Assembly: GCA_016931415.1 (NCBI GenBank)
Contig: JAFGEW010000104.1
Location: 1-35,360, forward strand
Length of the DNA stretch: 35,360 nt
Direction: 5' to 3'
Source: Verrucomicrobiota bacterium
GTDB lineage: Bacteria > Auribacterota > JABMQX01 > JAFGEW01
Of this stretch, positions 1 through 18,160 are shown piece by piece. The first letter of the stretch is position 1; each line of letters opens with the position of its first letter. The notes under the pieces are model-generated. The model was not told where the DNA came from. It did not search any database and worked only from the letters and a program-made list of their open reading frames with translations. The translations under genes were made by a program, and so were the position numbers.

Positions 1-1070
1 CGGCTCGTGCCCTTGGGCACCGTCGGCGGACGAATGGCCGGCACGAAGATGTGGTTGGCGTAGAGCGCGCGCGACTTCTCCATCGCGCGCGCCGGCTCGC
101 CGAGAATGATCGGCACGATGGGCGACGGTGTGTGGTCGGCCTCGTACCCCTTGGCGCGCAGGCCGGCCTTGAACGTGCCGATGTTTTCGCGCAGCGCGAC
201 GCGGCGCTCGGGCTCACGCTCAATGAGATCGAGCGCCGCGATCGCTGCCGCACACATCGGCGGCGCGAGCGCCGTGGTGTAGATGAAGCTCCGCGCCGTG
301 TTGCGCAGGTAGTCAATGAGCCGTCGCTCCCCGACGACGAACCCGCCGAGCCCGCCGAGCGCCTTGCTGAGTGTTCCCATAACGATGTCGATCTCGCCCT
401 CGCAGCCGGCGTGCTCGAGCGCACCGCGGCCGTGCTCGCCGAGCACGCCCGTGCCGTGTGCGTCGTCGGCCATGACGGTCGCGTTGTAGCGCTTGGCCAG
501 CAGCGCGATCTCGTGCAGCGGCGCAAGGTCGCCGTCCATGCTGAACACCGTGTCGGTCACCACGAGCCGCCGCCGCGCGGTGCGCGCCTGCGCGAGCGCC
601 TGTTCGAGCGACCCGAGGTCGCAGTGCGAGTAGACGAGCAGCTTGGCCTTTGACAGCCGCGCCCCGTCGATGATCGAGGCATGATCGAGCCGGTCGACGA
701 ACACGGCGTCGCCCTCGCCGGCCAGCGACGCGATGGTGCCAACGTTGGCCATGTAGCCTGTTGGGAACACGATGGCCGCCTCAACGCCCTTGAACTCGGC
801 GAGCCGCCGCTCGAGCTCACGGTGGATGCGCTGGTTGCCGCTCACGAGCCGCGAGGCGCCCGCGCCCACGCCGTACTCGTCAAGCGCGTCCTTGGCTGCC
901 GCGACGAGCCGCGGGTGGTTGGCCAGCCCGAGGTAGTTGTTCGAGCTGAAGCAGAGGAACGTCGTGCCGTAGAGCGTCACGATCCGGTCGGTCGCCCCGT
1001 CGAGCGTCTTGAACTCGCGGTGTAGTCCCTGCCGCCTCAACGTCTCCAATTCTTTGGCAATGAAATCCAT
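1..1070 (-). CDS. bioF: 8-amino-7-oxononanoate synthase (BioF), 3' end cut by window edge
   Basis: PLP-dependent alpha-oxoamine synthase that condenses pimeloyl-ACP/CoA with L-alanine, the first step of biotin ring assembly in the cytoplasm. The frame starts MDFIAKELETLRRQG at the ATG at 1070, preceded by the Shine-Dalgarno-like AGAGGG. About 356 codons are visible and some 35-40 are missing. Visible family signatures are SSNNYLGLA, the aspartate/histidine loop DDAHGTGVLG, the PLP-lysine motif GTLSKALGG, and near the edge FVPAIRPPTVPKGT. That last motif favours BioF over the paralogous 2-amino-3-ketobutyrate CoA ligase. It is the last visible gene of the minus-strand biotin cluster, about 110 bp after the ketosynthase stop, with a hairpin in the gap. 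Context with bioB supports the biotin assignment. Confidence 0.93.
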   Translation of the reverse strand, partial: MDFIAKELETLRRQGLHREFKTLDGATDRIVTLYGTTFLCFSSNNYLGLANHPRLVAAAKDALDEYGVGAGASRLVSGNQRIHRELERRLAEFKGVEAAIVFPTGYMANVGTIASLAGEGDAVFVDRLDHASIIDGARLSKAKLLVYSHCDLGSLEQALAQARTARRRLVVTDTVFSMDGDLAPLHEIALLAKRYNATVMADDAHGTGVLGEHGRGALEHAGCEGEIDIVMGTLSKALGGLGGFVVGERRLIDYLRNTARSFIYTTALAPPMCAAAIAALDLIEREPERRVALRENIGTFKAGLRAKGYEADHTPSPIVPIILGEPARAMEKSRALYANHIFVPAIRPPTVPKGTS

Positions 1071-1145
1071 GTGCCCTCTATTGCCCACATAAGCGTCTCG
1101 TCGCCAACTTGACGCTCAGACAGACACTCAAGCCGTCCCAATAAC

Positions 1146-1181
1146 AGGTATTGCCGCCGGCTTCAGCCGGTGGCAATACCT
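1146..1181 (-). repeat. Long hairpin at the ketosynthase stop codon, possible terminator or REP-like element
   Basis: Two 17-nt arms (1146-1162 and 1165-1181) are complementary except for one G:T position and form a hairpin with a tiny loop. The right arm begins inside the stop codon of the ketosynthase gene (1180-1182). No clean T-run follows on the minus strand. It could be an attenuating terminator inside the biotin operon, or a REP-like intergenic repeat with the palindromic core CCGGCTTCAGCCGG. I found no second copy of that core in this window. Confidence 0.6.
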
Positions 1182-2409
1182 ATTCCTGTTGATAACACCG
1201 ACCCAAGACCACGGCGCCGATGTGACCGCCGAAGCCGTAGTTTAGCACGAGCGCGTGCCGGATTGGGTGCGCAACCGCGACGTTCGGCGTGTAATCGAGG
1301 TCGCACGCCGGGTCGGGCTCATCGAGATTGATGGTCGGGGGCGCCACGCCGCGCCGCATCGCCTCGATGGTCACGATCAGCTCGACGCTGCCCGACGCGC
1401 TGAGCAAGTGGCCCGTCACCGGCTTGGTCGAGCAGACCTTCACGCGGTCGGCCCACGCGCCGAGCGCGGCGCGGAGGCCGCGTGTCTCCACCAGGTCATT
1501 GAGGCGTGTCGCCGTGCCGTGCGCGTTGATATGGTCCACCTCGTCGGGCGCGATCCCCGCTCGCGCAAGCGCCGCGCGGATCGCACCTGCAATCCCGCCG
1601 CCGCTCGCCTCGAGGTTGATCTGATGATGGGCGTCGTTGACGACGGCGCACCCGGCGATCTCGGCGAGCACCGCCGCACCCCGCGCTTTCGCCGAGGCCC
1701 GCGTTTCGACGAGCACGACACCAGCGCCCTCGCCGATGAGGAAACCCGCGCGACCGCGCGCGAACGGCCGGACAGCGCCCGCCGCCTCCGGCGCGCTCGA
1801 CGCGAGCACGCCCATGCGCTCGAACGCCGCCACAAGCAGCGGGGTGAGCGACGCTTCGGCGCTCCCGGCAAGAGCCCCCGAGGCCCGCCCTTCGCGTACG
1901 GCGCGCGCCGCCATCGCCAGACAATCGAGACCGGTCGAGCACGCCCCGACAAACGCCAGCCGCGGCCCGCCGCACCCGAAACGCGCAGCAACGGCATCGC
2001 CCGGCGCGGACGGCAGCGCACGCGGAATGAAGTCGGAGGGAACGGCGGCGGGACCAGACCTGAGAACCCCACGATGGACGCGCTCGACAAGCCGCATGTC
2101 CGGCTTGCCGCTCGAGACGTACACGCCGAGCGCCTGCGACACATCATCCGGCACATCCCGCAGGCATTCCTCGGCCGCACAGAGGGCAAGCGCCGTCGTC
2201 TGCGTCTCCTCGGGGAAGAGATTCATGGCCCCGGGATCCGTCACGCCGCCGCCGACATGGCGCGCATCGTCGAGCTTGACCGTCGAGAGCGCCGACCTGC
2301 CGGAGAAGACCGCCTCGGCCAGCGGGCCGACACCCATACCGCACGGCGTCACCGCGCCGCAGGCCGTGATCACCGCGCGCTCGTCGTCGGGTCGGACCGA
2401 GTACCGCAT
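1180..2409 (-). CDS. FabF-like beta-ketoacyl-ACP synthase in the biotin cluster
   Basis: A 409-residue thiolase-fold condensing enzyme of the KAS II (FabF) type, which extends acyl chains with malonyl-ACP. The catalytic triad is intact: Cys157 in GACSTGLDCL, His297 in NAHGTATRLND and His334 in TKPVTGHLLSASG, with the conserved Lys329. It is therefore an active-type enzyme, not a chain-length factor, in which the cysteine is replaced. The ATG at 2409 overlaps the TGA of the upstream SDR gene (TGATG), which implies translational coupling; the longer frame reaching 2493 would run into that gene. Lying between bioF and an SDR plus bioB, it probably serves the pimeloyl chain (inference). A housekeeping FabF role cannot be excluded from sequence alone. 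Confidence 0.92.
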   Translation of the reverse strand: MRYSVRPDDERAVITACGAVTPCGMGVGPLAEAVFSGRSALSTVKLDDARHVGGGVTDPGAMNLFPEETQTTALALCAAEECLRDVPDDVSQALGVYVSSGKPDMRLVERVHRGVLRSGPAAVPSDFIPRALPSAPGDAVAARFGCGGPRLAFVGACSTGLDCLAMAARAVREGRASGALAGSAEASLTPLLVAAFERMGVLASSAPEAAGAVRPFARGRAGFLIGEGAGVVLVETRASAKARGAAVLAEIAGCAVVNDAHHQINLEASGGGIAGAIRAALARAGIAPDEVDHINAHGTATRLNDLVETRGLRAALGAWADRVKVCSTKPVTGHLLSASGSVELIVTIEAMRRGVAPPTINLDEPDPACDLDYTPNVAVAHPIRHALVLNYGFGGHIGAVVLGRCYQQE

Positions 2410-3131
2410 CAGAGTCGGGCCGGACGGCTGTCCAGGTTGAATACCTGCGCCGAGACGTGACGCATGGCGGCCAGCCCCACGACAAACGCGCACACCTCGT
2501 CGAAGTCCGATGCCCGCCCGAGCACGTTGCCGGCGACGGCGCGCGCGACGTCCCGCTCCTTGAGGCCGGCCGTCATCGGCGTGCGCAGGAAGCCGGGCAG
2601 CACGACGTTGCAGCGGATGCCCTTGCGGCCAACCTCGTGCGCGGCGCTCAGCGTGAGCCCGACAAGGCCCGCCTTCGACGCGCTGTAGGCGGCGCCGCCA
2701 TACAGCCCGTGCGCGCCCCAGTACGAGCCGATCGTGATGATGTGGCCGTCGTGGCGCGGCAGCATGCGCACGATGGCCGCGCGCACGCAGTGGAACGCCC
2801 CAGTAAGGTTCACCTCGATCTGCTCGTCGAACGCCTCGGGCGCAACGGTCGCCACAAGCCCGGGCGGCGAGATCGCCGCCGTGTGCACGAGCACGTCGAG
2901 CCCGCCGAGGGCTTCGTCGAACCGGGCGAACGCCGCATCCACGGCTGCCGCATCGCGTACGTCACAGCACGCCGTGGCTGCCTGCGGCGGTTCGAGCGAC
3001 GCGGCGAGCTCGTGGAGCGCCTCCGGCGTAGAGTGGCCCATCAAACCGAGCGCCCAGCCGGCCCGCGCAAACGCCGCAGCAAGCTCGCGGCCGAGGCCGC
3101 CCGCGGCGCCGGTGATGACGACCGAACCCAT
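2409..3131 (-). CDS. Short-chain dehydrogenase/reductase, FabG-like, in the biotin cluster
   Basis: A 240-residue classical SDR, probably a 3-oxoacyl-ACP reductase using NAD(P)H. It has the nucleotide-binding glycine motif TGAAGGLG (residues 7-14), Asn108 in NLTG, Ser136 in IGSYW and the catalytic YSASK (Tyr149, Lys153). The chosen ATG at 3131 gives the usual FabG N-terminus MGSVVITG and lies one base after the bioB stop; an upstream in-frame start would overlap bioB by nine codons. Its 3' end shares one base with the ketosynthase start. A reductase paired with a condensing enzyme inside a biotin operon suggests the two perform chain-building rounds for the pimeloyl moiety (inference). Other SDR activities are possible. 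Confidence 0.9.
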   Translation of the reverse strand: MGSVVITGAAGGLGRELAAAFARAGWALGLMGHSTPEALHELAASLEPPQAATACCDVRDAAAVDAAFARFDEALGGLDVLVHTAAISPPGLVATVAPEAFDEQIEVNLTGAFHCVRAAIVRMLPRHDGHIITIGSYWGAHGLYGGAAYSASKAGLVGLTLSAAHEVGRKGIRCNVVLPGFLRTPMTAGLKERDVARAVAGNVLGRASDFDEVCAFVVGLAAMRHVSAQVFNLDSRPARL

Positions 3132-3132
3132 C

Positions 3133-4134
3133 TTACGCGGACCCCCGCGGCGCGACATGACGCCGCACGCCCAGCCCGAGCGCCGCGACCATCGCCAGGT
3201 CTTCCTCGGGTCGGTGGCCCGGCCTCGTGAGGTAGTTGCCGGTCATCGCGGCGTCGGCGCCGGCGGCATACATCTCCGCTTGCCGGGCGCCGAGCACCGC
3301 GTCACGCCCGCCGCAGACGCGGATCGTCGTGCGCGGGAGAATGAAGCGGTAGACGGCAATGATGCGCAGCGCCTCGTCCGCTGTGAGCATGGCTTGCCTC
3401 TCCAGAGGCGTGCCGGCGATGGGCATGAGGAAGTTGAGCGGCGCCGAGACGACGCCCAGCTCGCGCAACGTCATCGCCATATCCACGCGGTCGGCCCACG
3501 TCTCGCCCAGCCCGAAGATGCCGCCCGAGCATACCTCGAGACCCGCGGCCTTGGCCGTCTCGAGCGTGTCGAGCTTCGTCGCGTGGCGCTGGGTCGTACA
3601 GATCTCGGGATAGAAGCCCTCGGAAGTCTCAACGTTGTGATGGTAACGCACCAGCCCGGCAGCCCGCAGCCGGCGCGCCCGCTCGGACGTCAACGCGCCA
3701 AGCGACGCGCAGACGCCGACAACACCGAGCGCGATGAGCGCGCGCACCGCCTCGATAAGGCGATCGAAGTCCGCCTCGTCCAGCGCCACGCCGCTGGTGA
3801 CGATCCCGAAGCGCGATGCGCCTGACGCCGCCGCCGCGCGTGCCGCCTCGACGAGGTGCGCCGTGTCCATCAGCTCGTAGACGGGCGTGTCCGTCGAGTA
3901 GTGGACCGACTGCGCGCAGAACGTGCAGTCGTTCGGGCAGAAGCCCGACTTAGCGTTGACGATCGCGCAGAACTCGACCGTGCGGCCGCCGAAGCGCTCG
4001 ACAAGCCGCGCCGCACCGGCCGTGAGGTCATCGAGCGACGTCTCGTCCGACGCGAGCCGCAGCGCCTCGCCGCACGTCGTCTCGTGTCCGCCGGCCACCT
4101 GCCCGGCCAGCGCCAGCACCTCGTCTCGGTCCAT
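3133..4134 (-). CDS. bioB: Biotin synthase (BioB)
   Basis: Radical-SAM enzyme that inserts sulfur into dethiobiotin, the last step of biotin synthesis. The 333-residue product carries the [4Fe-4S] motif CPNDCTFC (Cys66, Cys70, Cys73), the family stretch YHHNVETSEGFYPEICTT, the GLGE turn, the arginine-bearing RVCGGR associated with the auxiliary cluster region, and the late GNYLT motif. Length fits the family. The ATG at 4134 follows AGGAGCAGG, a good ribosome-binding site. It is the first gene of a four-gene minus-strand operon (bioB, SDR, ketosynthase, bioF) with junctions of about 1 bp up to bioF. The inverted repeat 32 bp upstream looks like a BirA operator. Confidence 0.97.
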   Translation of the reverse strand: MDRDEVLALAGQVAGGHETTCGEALRLASDETSLDDLTAGAARLVERFGGRTVEFCAIVNAKSGFCPNDCTFCAQSVHYSTDTPVYELMDTAHLVEAARAAAASGASRFGIVTSGVALDEADFDRLIEAVRALIALGVVGVCASLGALTSERARRLRAAGLVRYHHNVETSEGFYPEICTTQRHATKLDTLETAKAAGLEVCSGGIFGLGETWADRVDMAMTLRELGVVSAPLNFLMPIAGTPLERQAMLTADEALRIIAVYRFILPRTTIRVCGGRDAVLGARQAEMYAAGADAAMTGNYLTRPGHRPEEDLAMVAALGLGVRRHVAPRGSA

Positions 4135-4165
4135 CCTGCTCCTGGTGGGATTGGGGGGTGAAGAG

Positions 4166-4199
4166 ATTGTTCAGCAGTCTACCAGACACCCTGAACAAT
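4166..4199 (-). promoter_or_regulatory. Candidate BirA biotin operator upstream of bioB
   Basis: Perfect inverted repeat ATTGTTCAG - 16 nt - CTGAACAAT, starting 32 bp upstream of the bioB ATG. Read as 9-mers it is TTGTTCAGC - 14 nt - CCTGAACAA. BirA operators are typically TTGTnAACC-type half-sites separated by 14-16 nt, so the outer TTGTT/AACAA and the spacing fit, while two or three inner positions differ. The short inner repeat GTCT/AGAC also allows an RNA hairpin. A terminator for the upstream lipoprotein gene is therefore the alternative, although the stem is AT-rich and no T-run follows. Confidence 0.6.
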
Positions 4200-4248: not shown

Positions 4249-4755
4249 CTACGGGTACTCGGGGGGGCGGATGCGACGCAGGCCGCGGCCGCTCAGCTTC
4301 CACTCGCCGTCGACCTGGGCAAAGAAGGCCTCGAACAGCTTCCACTTCTTGCCGGGCCCGCCTTGGGTCTTGAACTGCACGACGTGCTGGCCGTCGCGCT
4401 CCTCGACGCCGAGGATCTCGTAATCGAGGTCCGCAAACTCGTTGAGCTCGGCGTCACCGACCTTGGCCTTGGCTTTCTCGACCAAGCCCTTGAAGTACTG
4501 GAACGAGAACGTGCGGCGCATCGGCTCGGGGAACTGCATGTAGACCCCGTACAGGTCGGTGTGCGCCAGGAAGGTGTCCACATCACCCGACTTGAGCGCC
4601 TCGATCATCACCCGCGCCGTCTCCTCGACCGACAGCATGGCCGGCTCCGGCCCCTCGGCGTCCGGATCCGGGTGTCCGCAGCCGCCCAGCCCGACGGCCA
4701 GCACGGCGAACAGCAGGGCTGTTCTCGGCAATCTCAGCAGCAAGCATTCTCTCAT
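4249..4755 (-). CDS. Small lipoprotein, NTF2/DUF4878-like, array copy 1
   Basis: A 168-residue predicted lipoprotein. A basic N-terminus is followed by a hydrophobic segment and the lipobox LGGC near residue 26. After a short linker comes SVEETARVMIEALKSGDVDTFLAH, the opening helix typical of small SnoaL/NTF2-like or DUF4878-type domains. The end reads VDGEWKLSGRG, which matches the VDGKWK-type beta strand of the other copies. The exact family is my inference from this helix-then-sheet pattern; the ligand is unknown. It is one of four tandem paralogues (4249-6743) on the same strand and is probably anchored in the envelope. Copy 1 precedes the biotin operon but is separated from it by the candidate operator. 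Confidence 0.83.
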   Translation of the reverse strand: MRECLLLRLPRTALLFAVLAVGLGGCGHPDPDAEGPEPAMLSVEETARVMIEALKSGDVDTFLAHTDLYGVYMQFPEPMRRTFSFQYFKGLVEKAKAKVGDAELNEFADLDYEILGVEERDGQHVVQFKTQGGPGKKWKLFEAFFAQVDGEWKLSGRGLRRIRPPEYP

Positions 4756-5077
4756 GATGTCTGGTCTGGCTCCTTCATCCGATACTGACGGTCACCGCGT
4801 CGTACTATTCTACACCCCCGTTCGGCCGGACAGGAAACCCCGAACCTTCATGCGGACCATAGCATGCTTACCGCGAATGACAAGAGATGCGCCCAATGCG
4901 CTGTTCCCTTCGCGCTGGCTCGCGAGGCCAGAGCTGCACTCGCCAAGGAACGTGGTCTGCGGGCATCCCGGGTGTGGCCACCGGCCTTCGGGAAGAAGGC
5001 GGGCGTCCGGTGAAGGACGCCCGTCGGTGACTCGCACGTTCCGCGTAGAAGGCAGCATCCGGAGATTGCCCCGGCAG
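4756..5077 (-). other. Intergenic region between lipoprotein copies 1 and 2
   Basis: 322 bases without a convincing gene. Minus-strand open frames here have no family features and no good start. The right end holds the hairpin at 5000-5023 and a smaller one beside it (4984-5000). The left end should carry the promoter or leader of copy 1. A TAGAAT hexamer on the minus strand near 4808 could be a -10 element, but I see no matching -35, so no promoter is called. Confidence 0.5.
5000..5023 (-). terminator. Hairpin downstream of lipoprotein copy 2
   Basis: Perfect 9-bp GC-rich arms (CGGGCGTCC at 5000-5008, GGACGCCCG at 5015-5023) with a 6-nt loop, about 55 bp after the stop of the 5078-5590 gene. 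On the minus strand it is followed by the pyrimidine-rich CCTTCTTCCC, not a true T-run, so it is terminator-like at best. Confidence 0.55.
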
Positions 5078-5590
5078 CTACTCCTCCGTCATCATCGTGA
5101 AGAAGCCTTCGCCCGTGATCTTCCACTTGCCGTCAATCTTCTTGAAGGGGATCTCGCTCTCATCCCACTCGGCGTCGGGACCTTCCTTGATGCTGATCTT
5201 GAGGAAGGTAATATCGCCCTCTGTGCGCGAGGTGCCGAACTTGTAGTCGAAGCCCTCCGGTGGGCCGCCGGCTTGGCGCATGCCTTCCCGCATCTGCTCC
5301 ACCATCTCTTCGTAGGTACCTGCGCGCTGATCCTCGGGGAGCTTGTCGTAGACGCCCTTAAGGTCCACGCCGGCCAGGAAGCCGTCCGGATTGCCTTTCT
5401 TGAAGGCTTCGAGCATGGCCTTGGCCGCCGCCTGCGGCGAGTCGGCCGCCACGGCTGTGTCGGCCGTGGCCGGTGTCTCGCCGTTGCCTTTCGCATCGCC
5501 GCCAGCCGGCTTGTCGCCATCATCGCTCTTGCCGCAGCCGAGGCAGAACCCCACCGCAACGACGATCAGAAGCACCCACAGATTCCTCAT
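5078..5590 (-). CDS. Small lipoprotein, NTF2/DUF4878-like, array copy 2
   Basis: A 170-residue predicted lipoprotein starting MRNLWVLLIVVAVGFCLGC, with lipobox residues CLGC. The Asp after the acylated Cys region (GKSDDGD) lies too far along to act as a clear inner-membrane retention signal. A low-complexity Gly/Ala/Thr/Asp linker precedes a domain beginning SPQAAAKAMLEAFKKGNPDG and ending with the IDGKWKITGEGF strand, the same plan as the neighbouring copies. I chose the ATG at 5590 because GGGAGAGGGG precedes it and it gives a clean signal peptide; the open frame extends to 5677 without a signal. Function unknown; probably a periplasmic-facing binding or accessory domain (inference). Confidence 0.87.
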   Translation of the reverse strand: MRNLWVLLIVVAVGFCLGCGKSDDGDKPAGGDAKGNGETPATADTAVAADSPQAAAKAMLEAFKKGNPDGFLAGVDLKGVYDKLPEDQRAGTYEEMVEQMREGMRQAGGPPEGFDYKFGTSRTEGDITFLKISIKEGPDAEWDESEIPFKKIDGKWKITGEGFFTMMTEE

Positions 5591-5734
5591 GACCCCTCTC
5601 CCGTTGCTTTGATGAACTCCGAACACCCAAGCGCTGTCCGCGCAGCGCAACTGCGCAACCCTATCGCCACCCGGCACGAAAAGGCAACACGAGATTCCTC
5701 CGCGTCAGATCCTTCAGCCCTCGGCGACACACAG

Positions 5735-5765
5735 CGGCGGACGACCCATCTCGGATCGTCCGCCG
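5735..5765 (-). terminator. Hairpin downstream of lipoprotein copy 3
   Basis: Perfect 10-bp arms (CGGCGGACGA at 5735-5744, TCGTCCGCCG at 5756-5765) with an 11-nt loop, 25 bp after the stop of the 5790-6233 gene. No T-run follows on the minus strand. Its placement after a stop codon, like the hairpin after copy 2, suggests transcript processing or termination. Confidence 0.55.
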
Positions 5766-5789
5766 TGATAGAACGCTGTGGAAGCCGCG

Positions 5790-6233
5790 TTACTGGAGAT
5801 TCATCATCTCGTCGAACGGCATCATCCACTTGCCGTCGACCTTCTTGAGCGTGACCGTCTGCTTCTTCCAGTCCTTGTCGTCTTCCTTGATCTCGACAGT
5901 GACCGTCGCCGTGTCACCCTCTTCCTTCACCTCGAGGTTCTTGTAGTCGAATTTCTGGGGATTGTCCTTTGCTTCCTTCTTCGCCTGTTCGATGAACTCC
6001 TTCTTCCAGTCCTCGAACTTGGGAACCTCTTGTTGGGCCGCCTTAAGAGTCTCGGTAATCTTGTCGTACATGGTCTTGAGGTCCATGTAGTTCATGGCAG
6101 CCTCGACATCATTGGCCTTGATGGCATCGAGCATCCTCGTTGCCGTGCTCTCGGCGTTCCCGCCGCCGCCGCAGGTGCAGCCCATGGTTACGGCGAACAT
6201 CACCAGCACCAATCCAACACAAATCCTACTCAT
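5790..6233 (-). CDS. Small lipoprotein, NTF2/DUF4878-like, array copy 3
   Basis: A 147-residue predicted lipoprotein: MSRICVGLVLVMFAVTMGC, then Cys-rich glycine residues, then a domain opening ESTATRMLDAIKANDVEAAM. The middle is unusually Lys/Glu-rich and probably helical (around residues 65-95). The end has KEDDKDWKKQTVTLKKVDG and KWMMPFDEMM, the same WK...VDGKW strand seen in copies 1 and 2. AAAGGAG precedes the ATG at 6233. The charged, Lys-rich composition is unlike the high-Arg/Ala neighbours. It is the shortest copy. Function unknown; the domain naming is inference from pattern. Confidence 0.87.
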   Translation of the reverse strand: MSRICVGLVLVMFAVTMGCTCGGGGNAESTATRMLDAIKANDVEAAMNYMDLKTMYDKITETLKAAQQEVPKFEDWKKEFIEQAKKEAKDNPQKFDYKNLEVKEEGDTATVTVEIKEDDKDWKKQTVTLKKVDGKWMMPFDEMMNLQ

Positions 6234-6284
6234 GACCCTCGTACTCCTTTCCGTGGTTCGTAGCTTCTCCGCGTGTCCGACGGT

Positions 6285-6743
6285 CTATGTCCCCTGTCTC
6301 AGCAAGTTGGGTGTCAGGACGACGCGCCAAGTGCGGCCCACCTTGGTGGTGGTGAAGACGACCTCGGTGGGGTTGGGGTCGCCCATCGAGATCGTGGCCG
6401 TCACCGTGGCCCGGTCGTCGGTCTTCTCGGTAATCTTCGTCTTGGTCACCTTGAGGTAAAGCAGCTTGGTCCGCGACCGCTCCTCGCCCTCGCGGCCGAT
6501 GCCGTAGTCGGTGATCCTCTCGGCGACCTTCGTGAGCAGTTCCTTGCGGTTCTCGCCCAGGGGCCGACGGAGGGCTTGCTCGCTAGCCTCCCAGTCGACG
6601 ATTCTCTCCATCTTGTCCCAATTGAGGCTCTTGATAGCGCCCACGAAGCGCTTGGTCACGTTCGAGGGGCTGTTGAGCAGGCAGCCGCTCAGGCCGCAAG
6701 CCGCGGCCAACAGCAAGGCGCCTATCCGGATCGTGCGTACCAT
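6285..6743 (-). CDS. Small lipoprotein, divergent array copy 4
   Basis: A 152-residue predicted lipoprotein with MVRTIRIGALLLAAACGLSGC (lipobox LSGC) and a domain opening SNVTKRFVGAIKSLNWDKMERIV. Its C-terminal part is beta-rich, with TKITEKTDDRATVTATISM and VGRTWRVVLTP; the TWRV strand occupies the place of the DGKWK strand in copies 1-3. It is the most divergent of the four but has the same size, signal type and orientation. It follows waaA by only 11 bp, so it may be co-transcribed with it. GAGTAGGTGGG lies upstream of the ATG at 6743. Function unknown. Confidence 0.83.
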   Translation of the reverse strand: MVRTIRIGALLLAAACGLSGCLLNSPSNVTKRFVGAIKSLNWDKMERIVDWEASEQALRRPLGENRKELLTKVAERITDYGIGREGEERSRTKLLYLKVTKTKITEKTDDRATVTATISMGDPNPTEVVFTTTKVGRTWRVVLTPNLLRQGT

Positions 6744-13837: not shown

Positions 13838-14117
13838 GGTATTCCCTTGTCCGTTGACCCCGGCGACCGGCAACACGCCTTGCGCACATTGCCCGGCCCG
13901 GAGCGGGCGGCACCCTAGCACCGCTAGCACCATCCGTCAACACACCGTTCTGGCCACACCGCAACCTTCACAGATGTGCGGGACAAGAGAGGTGCTGTCT
14001 GGTATGCTTGGTGGTCAGACAGACAGGTGACAGGAATGCGACAATCGCACGGGCTGCACCGCTTGCGAACGCGTCGCTCCCGGTCATGAAGTGCAACACG
14101 CGCCCACAGGAATAATG
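13838..14117. other. Divergent intergenic region, aroB and Asp-box gene 1
   Basis: 280 bases that must hold divergent promoters for aroB (minus) and the Asp-box pair (plus). I see one imperfectly placed inverted repeat, CTGTCTG (13995-14001) and CAGACAG (14016-14022), but no clear -35/-10 pair and no RNA gene. Confidence 0.4.
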
Positions 14118-16220
14118 ATGCAGTTGCTTCGGTTCACACTGCCGGTGGCCCTTGCCTTGGCGGTTACACCCGCGCGCGCCCAGTGGCGCGAGGCGGTCGG
14201 TCCACCGGGCGGGTTAGTAACGGCCGCCGCCATCGACCCGCTCGATGCCGACAGGATCTTCGTTACCACACGGCAGCTCTGCCACTCAGCCGATGGCGGC
14301 AAGACCTGGGCGGTGGTCGACAACTACCCCTACGACAAGCGCGATGGCCAGTTCCAGTCCATCGTCATCTCTCGCCACAAGGACGGCCCGATCCTGATCT
14401 CCGGCTGGCGCCTCGTTGTCTCGCTTGATCGGGGCAAGACGTGGGAGACGCGCAAAGCGCCTATCGAGGCAGCGCGCTACTACGCCGGCGCCGAGGGTTC
14501 GAGCGTCCTGTATGCCCAGGACACACGCACCATCCACCGCAGCGACGATCACGGCGCGACCTGGCGCAAGCTCGAGGCGTGGAAGAACGACATCACTGGC
14601 ACGCCGGGCGAAGGTTGGATCGAGACGTTTTTCGCCGACCGGTATGACGCCGACACGATCTCGTTCACCCACCGCAGTGCGGAGCAGACCCAGTGGGTCC
14701 TCTCGCGCGACGGCGGCAAGTCTTTCACGGCGCTCGACGTGCCGCAGGACGCGCAGGCGGTGCTGTCGGTCTCGACCGATCCGGACGACCCGGACCTGCT
14801 CTACATCTGCATCCGCCACGGCTGGCGGGCGGGCGAGTTGCGGCGATTCCTGTTCTCGTACGACGACGGCCAATCCTGGGAGCTGTTCTGGGATCCCGAC
14901 TCCGGCGCGGTCGTGCCCGAGCTGACGCGCAAGAAGCTCGGGCAGATCTTCCCGGAGATGGTCAGCACGTCCCTACCGACCCCGATGCGCGAGAAGCCGG
15001 ACCGTGAGCACTGCGCCTGGTCCGAGAACGTGCCCGGGCGAGTGTTTGGCCTGTCGTGGCTCGGCAAGCTGTACCGTTCGGACGATTTTGGGGCAACCTG
15101 GCGACCCGCCTTCGACCAGCTCGTCATGACGGAGATCAACCGCCTCGTGTTCAACGCCAAGGAGCGGGGGACCGTCTACTGCTGGGGTGAACGCGGCTCG
15201 TGGCTCACGGCCGATGGCGGTGCGACATGGGCCGATCTCGGCATCCAGCAGTACTGGTCGTTCCGCCAGATCGCGGCCTCGCCCGACGGCGCGACCTTGT
15301 TCGTTGTGGCCGACGCCGTCTACCGCAGGAAGCGCGGCGAGGAGGAGTGGCTGGTCGTCTGGCGCCCGGCCGACTACAGCAAGGCGCCGATGGCGGTCTT
15401 CTTCCCCGAGCCGGACGACGCCGAGGCCAAGCCCGGCTCGACCGTCGTGCTCGTCGGCACCGGCATCCGCGTCGAGTCGACCGACGGCGGCGCGACCTGG
15501 GGCACAATCGGGGAGAGCAACCTCGAGCTCAACCTCGGGCCGTTGCCGAAGTTCTTCGGGGAGCTGACGGTGGGCGAGCGCGCTGTATGGCTGATCTGGG
15601 AACTCCAGCGGCCCATGCTTCTCAGCGAAGACCAAGGCCGGACGTGGAAACCGTTCGGGCCCGACGGCGGGCTTCAGGCCGATTGGTGGTCGCGGGCCGC
15701 CGACGGTGCGTTCTGGACCGTGCGCAAAGGCAAGGCGCGCATCCTCCGCCCGCTCGACGACAAGCCCGACACCGGCACGACGCTCAGGATTGCCCATCCG
15801 CGTCTCGTCACCTGCGATCCGGCCGATGCGCAAACCGCCTATTTCGCCGACCGCGACAGCCGCCTCCTGCGCACCACCGACGGCGGCAAGTCGTTCGAAG
15901 TCCTCGACGGAGGGCCGACCAGGTTCCAGATCAACGACCTCGCCGTCTCACCGCACGACGGCGCGCTCTGGGTCGCCACTTCGGGCAACGGCGTCTGGAT
16001 CCTCGACAAGCCGAAGACGCATCCAGGCACGCCGCTGGAGGACACAGGAAAAACAGGTCAGTCGAGGACCTTTCGCGTATTAGACGATGTCACTGAACAG
16101 TGTCGCCGCGACGCAGTCACACATCGTCGAAGAGGAGCAGAGGAAGGGCCGGTGGCTTGGGCCCGGCATATGCACGCCTTCGCGGTAACCGTGCGGTGGT
16201 CCGCGATCACGCGGTACTGA
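14118..16220 (+). CDS. Secreted Asp-box (BNR/sialidase-like) repeat protein 1
   Basis: A 700-residue exported protein. The signal peptide MQLLRFTLPVALALAVTPARA ends before QWREA. The rest is made of Asp-box hairpins of the S-x-D-x-G-x-T-W type: SADGGKTW, SLDRGKTW, RSDDHGATW, SRDGGKSF, SYDDGQSW, RSDDFGATW, TADGGATW, STDGGATW, SEDQGRTW and TTDGGKSF. This predicts one or two beta-propellers, as in sialidases or VPS10/photosystem-assembly-like proteins. No sialidase arginine triad is recognisable, so catalysis is not claimed. AGGA sits six bases before the ATG at 14118 (ATG at 14115 is adjacent). The last ~60 codons have no counterpart in the neighbouring paralogue and show low third-position GC, suggesting loss of an ancestral stop near 16037. 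Confidence 0.88.
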   Translation: MQLLRFTLPVALALAVTPARAQWREAVGPPGGLVTAAAIDPLDADRIFVTTRQLCHSADGGKTWAVVDNYPYDKRDGQFQSIVISRHKDGPILISGWRLVVSLDRGKTWETRKAPIEAARYYAGAEGSSVLYAQDTRTIHRSDDHGATWRKLEAWKNDITGTPGEGWIETFFADRYDADTISFTHRSAEQTQWVLSRDGGKSFTALDVPQDAQAVLSVSTDPDDPDLLYICIRHGWRAGELRRFLFSYDDGQSWELFWDPDSGAVVPELTRKKLGQIFPEMVSTSLPTPMREKPDREHCAWSENVPGRVFGLSWLGKLYRSDDFGATWRPAFDQLVMTEINRLVFNAKERGTVYCWGERGSWLTADGGATWADLGIQQYWSFRQIAASPDGATLFVVADAVYRRKRGEEEWLVVWRPADYSKAPMAVFFPEPDDAEAKPGSTVVLVGTGIRVESTDGGATWGTIGESNLELNLGPLPKFFGELTVGERAVWLIWELQRPMLLSEDQGRTWKPFGPDGGLQADWWSRAADGAFWTVRKGKARILRPLDDKPDTGTTLRIAHPRLVTCDPADAQTAYFADRDSRLLRTTDGGKSFEVLDGGPTRFQINDLAVSPHDGALWVATSGNGVWILDKPKTHPGTPLEDTGKTGQSRTFRVLDDVTEQCRRDAVTHRRRGAEEGPVAWARHMHAFAVTVRWSAITRY

Positions 16221-16243
16221 TGCATCAACAGATGGGAACGGAT

Positions 16244-18160
16244 ATGCGGCACTTGTTCGTCTCGATCATGCTCCTCGCCTGCGGCGGGGCCTTCGCGCAG
16301 TGGCGGCCGGTTTCGGGCCCGCTCGGTGTGTTCTTCGGGTCCGGGGAGAAAGTGCTGATCGCCATCGACCCGCTCGATGCCGAGAGCGCGTTCCTCGGCG
16401 GCCGCCTGTTGTGGCATTCATCCGATGGGGGCAAGACGTGGGCCCGCGTCGAGAACGTGTCGCTGCGGCCCGGGGAACAGATCTGGTCGATTGCGATCTC
16501 GCGCGATGAGGACGGACCGATCCTCGCGTCGGGCACCGCGCGTCTGGTCTCGAACGACCGCGGCCAGACGTGGCAGCGCAGCGAGTCGCCCTTGCTGCTG
16601 CATAGCTTCGTTTATGCTGGCCCCGCGGGCTCGAAGGTCTTCTGGGGCTTCGACGACAGCAGGATCCGCCGCAGCAACGACAACGGCCTGACGTGTGAAA
16701 CCGTCTTCGAGCAACCCGGGGGAGAGCAGCGCGGCCGGCTCGACTGTTTCGTGGCGGACCGTTTCGATGCCGAGACCATCTCCTTCGGTGTGTTCAGCGG
16801 TCCCGAAAACCGGCGCTTCCTCATCTCACGCGATGGCGGCGCAACGCTCCAGGAGCTCTCGCTCCCTCGCAGTGACCGGCTCCTGGTGTCGCTGTCGACG
16901 GATCCGGATGATCCGGATCTGCTTTACGCGTGCACCCGGCGGGAGGTGTGGACCGAGGCGCAGTTCTCCTTCACGTACGACAACGGCGAGACGTGGGAAC
17001 CACTGCTCGACCTCTCCGTTGCCGAGGAGGCCCAGACCGAGGTGTGGGCCAAGCTCAGGCGCGTCCTGCCCGAGACACTCGCGTTTCCCATGCCGATAGG
17101 ATCGGATGGCGGCTTCCAGTTAGCCCGCCACCAGCTCGCGTGGTCGGAGGACGAGCCGGGCCGACAGGTCGGCGTCGCTGACGGGATCGTGTGCCGGTCC
17201 GACGACTACGGGAAGACGTGGGAACCGGCTATGGCCGGCCTGGCAGCCGCCGCGATTGAGGGAATCGTGCTCGATCCGCGCGATTCGAAATCGGCCTTCT
17301 GTGCTGATTCAACGCGGCTGTGGCACACGGCGGACGGGGGCGCGACGTGGCGCGCGATGCCCCGGCAGATCAGACACGTAACCCATGTCGTGTTCTCGCC
17401 CAGCGGCGAGCACGTATACGCCGCGTGCTGGCAGACGCTGTGGCGGGGCACGCGCAACGGCACCGATTGGGAGCAGGTCTGGGAGACCAGCGACGACATG
17501 GACTTGACAGCCGGCGTGTTCTTCTTCGAGACGGCTCATGGAGAGGAGCGTGAGTCGGTCGCCGTGCTTGTGACGAGGGAATCGCTGTTCGAGTCGCGCG
17601 ACGATGGGCGCACGTGGCGGTCGGCCGGCGCGAACGCTTTTGCCGAATCGGGGTTCCCTTCTGCCCTGCGACCCACCCAGGGGCGAGTGGCCGGCCAAGA
17701 CACGTGGATTGTCGTTCTCAACTCTGGGACAGGCAAGGAGTATCGGCTCGCCAGCACTGACCATGGCCGCACATGGGCGCGGGACACACTCGGCATGGGG
17801 CCGTGGTCGGTTGCCGCCGACGGCTCAACGTGGGTCGTGGGAGAGACGCTCGTGCACGCGCCGGCATCCGGCACGGGTGACACCACGCGGCGCGAGTGGC
17901 GCCTGGCCAAGCCGACCGCCCTGGTGTGCGATCCGAAGAACGCCGACGTGCTCTACGTCGGATGCGAGGACGGCCGCATCCTTCGGACGACCGATGGCGG
18001 CAACACGTTCTCGCGCCTCGAGGGTGGCCCACCGGCAATCCCCATCGCCCAACTCGTTGTCTCACCCCGCGACGGCGCGCTCTGGGTCGCCACTTCGGGC
18101 AATGGGGTCTGGATCCTCGACAAGCCGAAGGAGCATCCGGGCAGGCCGCTTGCGGAGTAG
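16244..18160 (+). CDS. Secreted Asp-box (BNR/sialidase-like) repeat protein 2
   Basis: A 638-residue exported paralogue of the gene before it. The signal peptide MRHLFVSIMLLACGGAFA is followed by QWRPVSGP, matching QWREAVGP of protein 1. Asp-boxes include SSDGGKTW, SNDRGQTW, SRDGGATL, TYDNGETW, RSDDYGKTW, TADGGATW, SRDDGRTW, STDHGRTW and TTDGGNTF. Both proteins share STDPDDPDLLY and the ending GALWVATSGNGVWILDKPK. The start is ambiguous: ATG at 16220 overlaps the previous stop (TGATG, coupling), ATG at 16232, or ATG at 16244 with a purine-rich GGGAACGG and the tightest signal peptide, which I prefer. Function unknown; envelope or extracellular binding is likely (inference). Confidence 0.88.
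   Translation: MRHLFVSIMLLACGGAFAQWRPVSGPLGVFFGSGEKVLIAIDPLDAESAFLGGRLLWHSSDGGKTWARVENVSLRPGEQIWSIAISRDEDGPILASGTARLVSNDRGQTWQRSESPLLLHSFVYAGPAGSKVFWGFDDSRIRRSNDNGLTCETVFEQPGGEQRGRLDCFVADRFDAETISFGVFSGPENRRFLISRDGGATLQELSLPRSDRLLVSLSTDPDDPDLLYACTRREVWTEAQFSFTYDNGETWEPLLDLSVAEEAQTEVWAKLRRVLPETLAFPMPIGSDGGFQLARHQLAWSEDEPGRQVGVADGIVCRSDDYGKTWEPAMAGLAAAAIEGIVLDPRDSKSAFCADSTRLWHTADGGATWRAMPRQIRHVTHVVFSPSGEHVYAACWQTLWRGTRNGTDWEQVWETSDDMDLTAGVFFFETAHGEERESVAVLVTRESLFESRDDGRTWRSAGANAFAESGFPSALRPTQGRVAGQDTWIVVLNSGTGKEYRLASTDHGRTWARDTLGMGPWSVAADGSTWVVGETLVHAPASGTGDTTRREWRLAKPTALVCDPKNADVLYVGCEDGRILRTTDGGNTFSRLEGGPPAIPIAQLVVSPRDGALWVATSGNGVWILDKPKEHPGRPLAE

Follow-up and report, generated by a model that had tools for sequence, protein, structure and literature searches.

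A probable BirA operator in front of the bioB operon of an Auribacterota genome

The bioB operon and the inverted repeat preceding it

The window analysed here, a DNA stretch of 35,360 nucleotides, covers positions 1 to 35,360 of contig JAFGEW010000104.1 of a Verrucomicrobiota bacterium (assembly GCA_016931415.1) that GTDB places in the Auribacterota. It carries bioB, the genes for a FabG-like short-chain dehydrogenase (SDR) and a FabF-like ketosynthase (KS), and a gene that we take to be bioF-like. These genes are preceded by an inverted repeat that most probably is an operator of the biotin-dependent regulator BirA (Table 1).

Table 1. Location of the biotin genes and of the repeat elements in the window (ORF, open reading frame)
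Feature	Position	Strand	Remarks
Candidate BirA operator	4166..4199	(-)	TTGTTCAGG-N14-GCTGAACAA on bioB strand, plus one base pair either side
bioB-distal operator half-site	4190..4198	(-)	TTGTTCAGG on bioB strand
bioB-proximal operator half-site	4167..4175	(-)	GCTGAACAA on bioB strand
bioB, biotin synthase	3133..4134	(-)	TIGR00433, 365 bits, over cut-off
FabG-like SDR	2409..3158	(-)	26-bp overlap of listed ORF with bioB
FabF-like KS	1180..2493	(-)	listed ORF starts with GTG and overlaps SDR gene
bioF-like gene	1..1070	(-)	truncated at contig start; identity of 53.5-58.4% with its counterpart downstream of bioB in loci L100-L104

The repeat is composed of perfect 9-bp arms at 4166-4174 (ATTGTTCAG) and 4191-4199 (CTGAACAAT), separated by a loop of 16 nt; in the register published for BirA, it reads as two inverted 9-bp half-sites. 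The intergenic sequence on the bioB strand is ...CCTTCC TATTGTTCAGGGTGTCTGGTAGACTGCTGAACAATC TCTTCACC...AGGAGCAGG ATG. The sequence-only reading had described a perfect 9-bp inverted repeat with TTGTT outer bases, the 14-16 nt spacing of biotin operators and the inner bases CAG rather than AAC; the repeat was confirmed, and the remark on the inner bases proved correct. Its distance of 32 bp to bioB was measured as 31 bases (4135-4165) before the ATG at 4134; the gene following at this distance is a biotin gene by its TIGR00433 match.

The BirA consensus quoted in PMC545781, TTGTAAACC-[N14/15]-GGTTTACAA, goes back to Rodionov et al. (2002), and the same source gives Geobacter sites such as TTGTcAACC-[N14]-aGTTgACAA. 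The window site shares with these the spacing, the TTGT/ACAA ends, and A at position 7. Like the delta-proteobacterial operators described in PMC545781, it consists of inverted half-sites starting with TTGT, spaced by N14 and located before bioB, but its inner bases are CAG instead of AAC. When scored against TTGTnAACC, it agrees at 11 of 16 informative positions and in 8 of 9 palindromic pairs, with TTGT and A7 present in both halves. A smaller inverted repeat, GTCT-N3-AGAC, is located inside the spacer (4177-4187); these bases are absent from that place in G001, the single class-mate available for comparison.

Perfect 9-bp inverted repeats with loops of 3-25 nt have 27 listed starts in the window, several of which are overlapping registers; the repeat upstream of bioB has the most A+T-rich arm among them (G+C 3/9). 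When the intergenic region of 114 bp was shuffled 5000 times with its dinucleotides preserved, 51 of the shuffled sequences contained such a repeat with a loop of 3-25 and 16 contained one with a loop of 12-18, while none combined a 12-18 loop with TTGT near the outer end. The pattern TTGTTCAGN{13,17}CTGAACAA matched once in the window and in none of 100 shuffles. The relaxed pattern TTGTNNAN{18}TNNACAA was found in two places across the whole genome (134 contigs totalling 4,055,620 bases), with no match for the reversed control, and a longer pattern that extended into the flanks and tolerated at most three mismatches retrieved only those same two places.

The overlap of the bioB, SDR, and KS reading frames leads us to expect one shared transcript, which very probably includes the bioF-like gene as well. 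The order bioB-SDR-KS-bioF was also found in four other genomes from three families (G005, G008, G027, and G030), all four of which possess the site. Since the reading frames overlap and this gene order recurs, the SDR and KS would both come under biotin repression by BirA, provided that binding and repression follow the known systems. The gene next after bioF in G005 and G008 resembles bioA, as judged by eye. G011 has the site but no SDR or KS match; by eye, methyltransferase-like and bioD-like genes follow bioF, as if bioC replaced the SDR and KS. The site therefore goes with bioB, and some lineages carry the SDR and KS as well. These two genes possibly stand in for the BioC route to pimelate. 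They are located between bioB and bioF in five genomes (window positions 1-3158; L100, L102-L105). The genome's own bioA and bioD lie together on another contig, C61 (L149), behind a gene that looks pyrE-like by eye.

Conservation of the site and the BirA proteins

The sequence-only reading had proposed to look for the motif upstream of bio genes in related genomes, and sites of this type indeed precede bioB in G001 and six other members of the phylum. G001 displays TTGTTCAGG-N14-GCTTAACAA at the same spacing, with the CAG variant in one half-site. Downstream of bioB in this genome, an SDR gene extends to the end of the contig, and the gene on the other side of the site is divergent, pointing away.

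The search for bioB matched 36 of 44 genomes, some only via other low-score proteins, and the best 28 loci (L020-L047) were taken. One of them, L040 of G041, had no upstream DNA, so that 27 genomes were scored; for G008, which has a second bioB-like copy on contig C102, one copy was scored. Up to 300 bp before bioB were scanned for TTGTnAACC half-sites with a gap of 14 or 15 and for palindromy, using 500 shuffles for each genome. Eight of the 27 genomes, including the one studied here (G000), had a site at p<=0.006, in every case with a gap of 14: TTGTTCAGG/GCTGAACAA in G000, TTGTTCAGG/GCTTAACAA in G001, TTGTAAAGT/AGTTGACAA in G005, TTGTCAACT/ACTTAACAA in G008, TTGTTAACT/AGTTGACAA in G011, TTGTCAACC/GGTTGACAA in G016 (16 of 16 informative positions), TTGTTAAGC/ACTTAACAT in G027, and TTGTAAAGC/GATTGACAA in G030.

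The profile search revealed two BirA proteins in the genome, on contigs C46 and C25, each with HTH_11, BPL_LplA_LipB, and BPL_C over cut-off. Both copies thus possess the architecture of group II (bifunctional) BirA, namely an N-terminal helix-turn-helix (HTH), a ligase catalytic domain, and a C-terminal domain. This answers the question, raised from the sequence, of whether BirA of this organism has an N-terminal HTH. The C46 protein scored 60.5 bits for HTH_11, 81 bits for the ligase domain, and 37 bits for BPL_C; its residues 20-338, HTH included, align with BirA chains of known structure, among them 3v7r and 1bia (S. aureus and E. coli). The C25 protein (338 aa; HTH_11, 50.1 bits) is encoded in front of bioY and shares 38% identity with the C46 copy. 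The latter is 49% identical to BirA of G001 and is a likelier partner of the operator than the more divergent C25 copy. Contig C25 has only 3,871 bases, and the estimated contamination of the assembly is 4.48%; for these reasons, the BirA and BioY encoded there may be foreign. This pair may represent either a contaminant or a separate uptake regulator.

The presence of the site follows the domain composition of BirA. Among the genomes scored, it was detected in 8 of the 12 that encode an HTH-bearing BirA versus 0 of the 12 with a BirA lacking the HTH (Fisher test, 0.0007, ignoring kinship). The absence of the site from all twelve of the latter genomes provides a naturally occurring test of the repressor model. 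The HTH-less state was assigned by Pfam in G012, G015, G018, G032, G038, and G042, and by a match start at or beyond residue 95 in frames of at most 287 aa in G002, G029, G034, G037, G039, and G040. Three genomes with no BirA match (G035, G036, and G043) were excluded from the Fisher test, and five with an HTH-bearing BirA (G003, G013, G020, G026, and G033) were unscored for want of a usable bioB locus. The site occurs in families f1, f2, f4, f6, f9, and f15, and the HTH-less genomes belong to families f3, f5, f11, f13, f16, and f17.

Mode of action and alternative readings

The repeat most probably is a BirA operator of the bioB-SDR-KS-bioF operon, the binding and repression being assigned by analogy. 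This reading, already put forward from the sequence alone, is supported by conservation of the site within the class and the phylum, by the HTH-bearing BirA, and by the co-occurrence of site and HTH. According to PMC4016012, BirA of E. coli and B. subtilis dimerises when loaded with biotinoyl-AMP and then binds its operator, and the B. subtilis group II biotin ligase binds the inverted repeat only with biotin and ATP, leaving a single half-site unbound. If this ligand-dependent behaviour can be carried over, BirA would retain biotinoyl-AMP and dimerise once the biotin-accepting proteins are loaded; the dimer would bind the two inverted half-sites 14 bp apart and block transcription of the operon. 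When biotin is scarce, BirA would release biotinoyl-AMP, no dimer would form, and the operon would be transcribed. We infer both the partner BirA copy and the position of the promoter in this scheme.

Systems of this kind are known, including a BirA-controlled biotin operon of Desulfovibrio with ketosynthase and reductase homologues (PMC545781). In comparison with the delta-proteobacteria treated in that source, the operon described here encodes a single FabF-like KS and a single FabG-like SDR, arranged as bioB-SDR-KS-bioF, and its genomes belong to another phylum, a distinction that we draw from the uncommon gene order and half-site. B. subtilis BirA has three operators, at bioWAFDBI, yuiG, and yhfUTS, which are unlike those of E. 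coli in both sequence and spacing (PMC4016012). As in B. subtilis, there is a group II biotin ligase and more than one operator per genome, the second one here being a candidate; the targets are different, namely the bioB operon and perhaps also a gene for an AIR-synthase-like protein. In Proteobacteria, BirA regulons are reported where BirA has retained its DNA-binding domain, with an expansion to fabF, fabH, and acpP in Desulfovibrionales (PMC5343134); the link between HTH and operator is the same here, in another set of genomes. This set of genomes and the class-specific half-site are new, and a second target is possible. The BirA switch would thereby extend to another set of genomes, and its presence is regulatory evidence for a role of the KS and SDR encoded with bioB in the synthesis of biotin, presumably of the pimelate moiety.

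Several observations weigh against an operator of BirA. Half-site positions 6 and 8 are C and G in place of the published A and C, and the promoter search revealed no sigma-70 promoter-like site near the operator. The own-genome pattern scan detected no BirA-like site at the bioA-bioD locus on C61. The scan upstream of bioB was not blind, because a looser scan had already shown sites when its scoring was settled. Among the 12 HTH-positive genomes scored, four had no significant site before bioB (G004, G006, G014, and G023, the last with a weak one, p 0.058), and in about 1.5 kb on each side of bioB their best scores were 16-17 versus at least 19 for the accepted sites. G014 has a perfect palindrome at another spacing, TTGTTATGT-N18-ACATAACAA, further upstream. 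Finally, the relaxed pattern is no more frequent than the reversed control in many A+T-rich genomes of the phylum (6 versus 12 matches in G005; 14 versus 22 in G007). For this reason the pattern alone says little in such genomes, and the evidence there is the position before bioB.

The deviation from the published consensus at two positions of the half-site (TTGTTCAG) would also suit another dimeric regulator, for example BioR or BioQ, that has taken over the control of bioB in the phylum. On indirect evidence, no search aimed at GntR or TetR regulators of biotin genes having been made, we consider this improbable, since the spacing is that of the BirA consensus, the half-sites of the phylum grade into the consensus (TTGTCAACC in G016, TTGTTAACT in G011), and the presence of the site tracks the HTH of BirA. 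Still less probable is a terminator of the lipoprotein-like gene transcribed in the direction of bioB at 4249-4755. The repeat does lie about 50 nt past the stop of this gene, in the same direction, and the strand can form a 9-bp stem. However, the search returned no terminator-like site and no G+C-rich hairpin with a T run: the stem is A+T-rich and followed by CTCTTCACC, with no T run, and its folding energy equals that of shuffled sequences (z 0.03). In addition, no listed gene reads into the site in G001, where it lies between bioB and a divergent gene, and N14 sites precede bioB in six further genomes. The terminator was rejected on the lack of a T run, the shuffle-like fold, and the divergent upstream gene of G001. 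The chance of a fortuitous palindrome is almost nil: the number of perfect repeats in the window shows that they are not rare, but the TTGT type at such spacing was absent from all shuffles and the same-spacing site recurs before bioB in G001 and six other genomes.

Another pattern search gave matches in nine genomes, with a spacing of 16 only in G000 and G001 and N14, N15, or N17 in the seven others (G006, G011, G014, G020, and, at loci L017-L019, G065, G076, and G085). The matches of other spacing in G006, G011, G014, and G020 had no recognised biotin gene in the context read. Among the relaxed matches listed, there were second ones in G001 (contig C372) and in G016 (C6; score 17, its surroundings considered as listed ORFs). 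A second good-looking site in G030 (C59:15323-15354) was taken as chance; it is located within a short reading frame, with no biotin gene recognised in 8.1 kb.

A second candidate site, the half-site variant, and other features

The other genomic match of the relaxed pattern, at 1371-1402 of contig C131 (L006), reads TTGTTAAGC-N14-TCTGAACAA and ends 17 nt before the ATG of an AIR-synthase-like gene. Its spacing is identical to that of the window site, and the TAGGA after its right arm matches the distal flank of the latter. A chance origin is unlikely, because only about 0.03 matches of the first loose pattern at this exact spacing are expected in the genome (arithmetic from base composition). 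The encoded protein of 356 aa matched AIRS and AIRS_C over cut-off, with the HypE, ThiL, and SelD models below cut-off, and presumably is an ATP-dependent enzyme of the HypE/ThiL/SelD superfamily. No TTGT-type N14 site was present in the up to 300 bp inspected (133 bp for L051, which ends there) upstream of the homologues from seven further genomes (L051-L057, with L109 and L110 as extended versions of L052 and L051). The gene was therefore rejected as a conserved BirA target, and the site on C131 is at best specific to this genome, where it represents a concrete candidate for a further, putative BirA target.

The CAG deviation has two components. G at position 8 is partly shared across the phylum, being also present in G005, G008, G027, and G030. 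C at position 6 is class-specific: it occurs in both half-sites of the window, in one of two on C131, in one of two in G001, and in none of 12 in the six other genomes. The recognition helix of BirA reads SRTT in the C46 copy and in G001, while the other 15 rows of the alignment have SRTA, TRTA, or SRAA, the exceptions being G020 with SISI and the C25 copy with SRNA. The coincidence of C6 and SRTT is suggestive only, because it comes from one lineage. We tentatively consider, as a possibility with the odds against it, that the operator preference of BirA in this class shifted from A6 to C6 (TTGTTAAG versus TTGTTCAG) together with the change from SRTA, which most relatives have, to SRTT, and that the AIR-synthase-like gene on C131 was gained as a new target. 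Biotin status would then be linked to a pathway that is not known to depend on biotin.

Apart from the biotin genes, the window contains four consecutive small lipoprotein-like ORFs on the minus strand (4249-6743; 168, up to 199, 147, and 152 aa), which look like paralogues by eye; at E 0.001, the first of them matched neither Pfam nor NCBIfam. On the plus strand (14091-18160), two large ORFs of 709 and 686 aa lie side by side and resemble each other. Both display repeated SxDxGxTW-type motifs, as in BNR/sortilin-like propellers when judged by eye.
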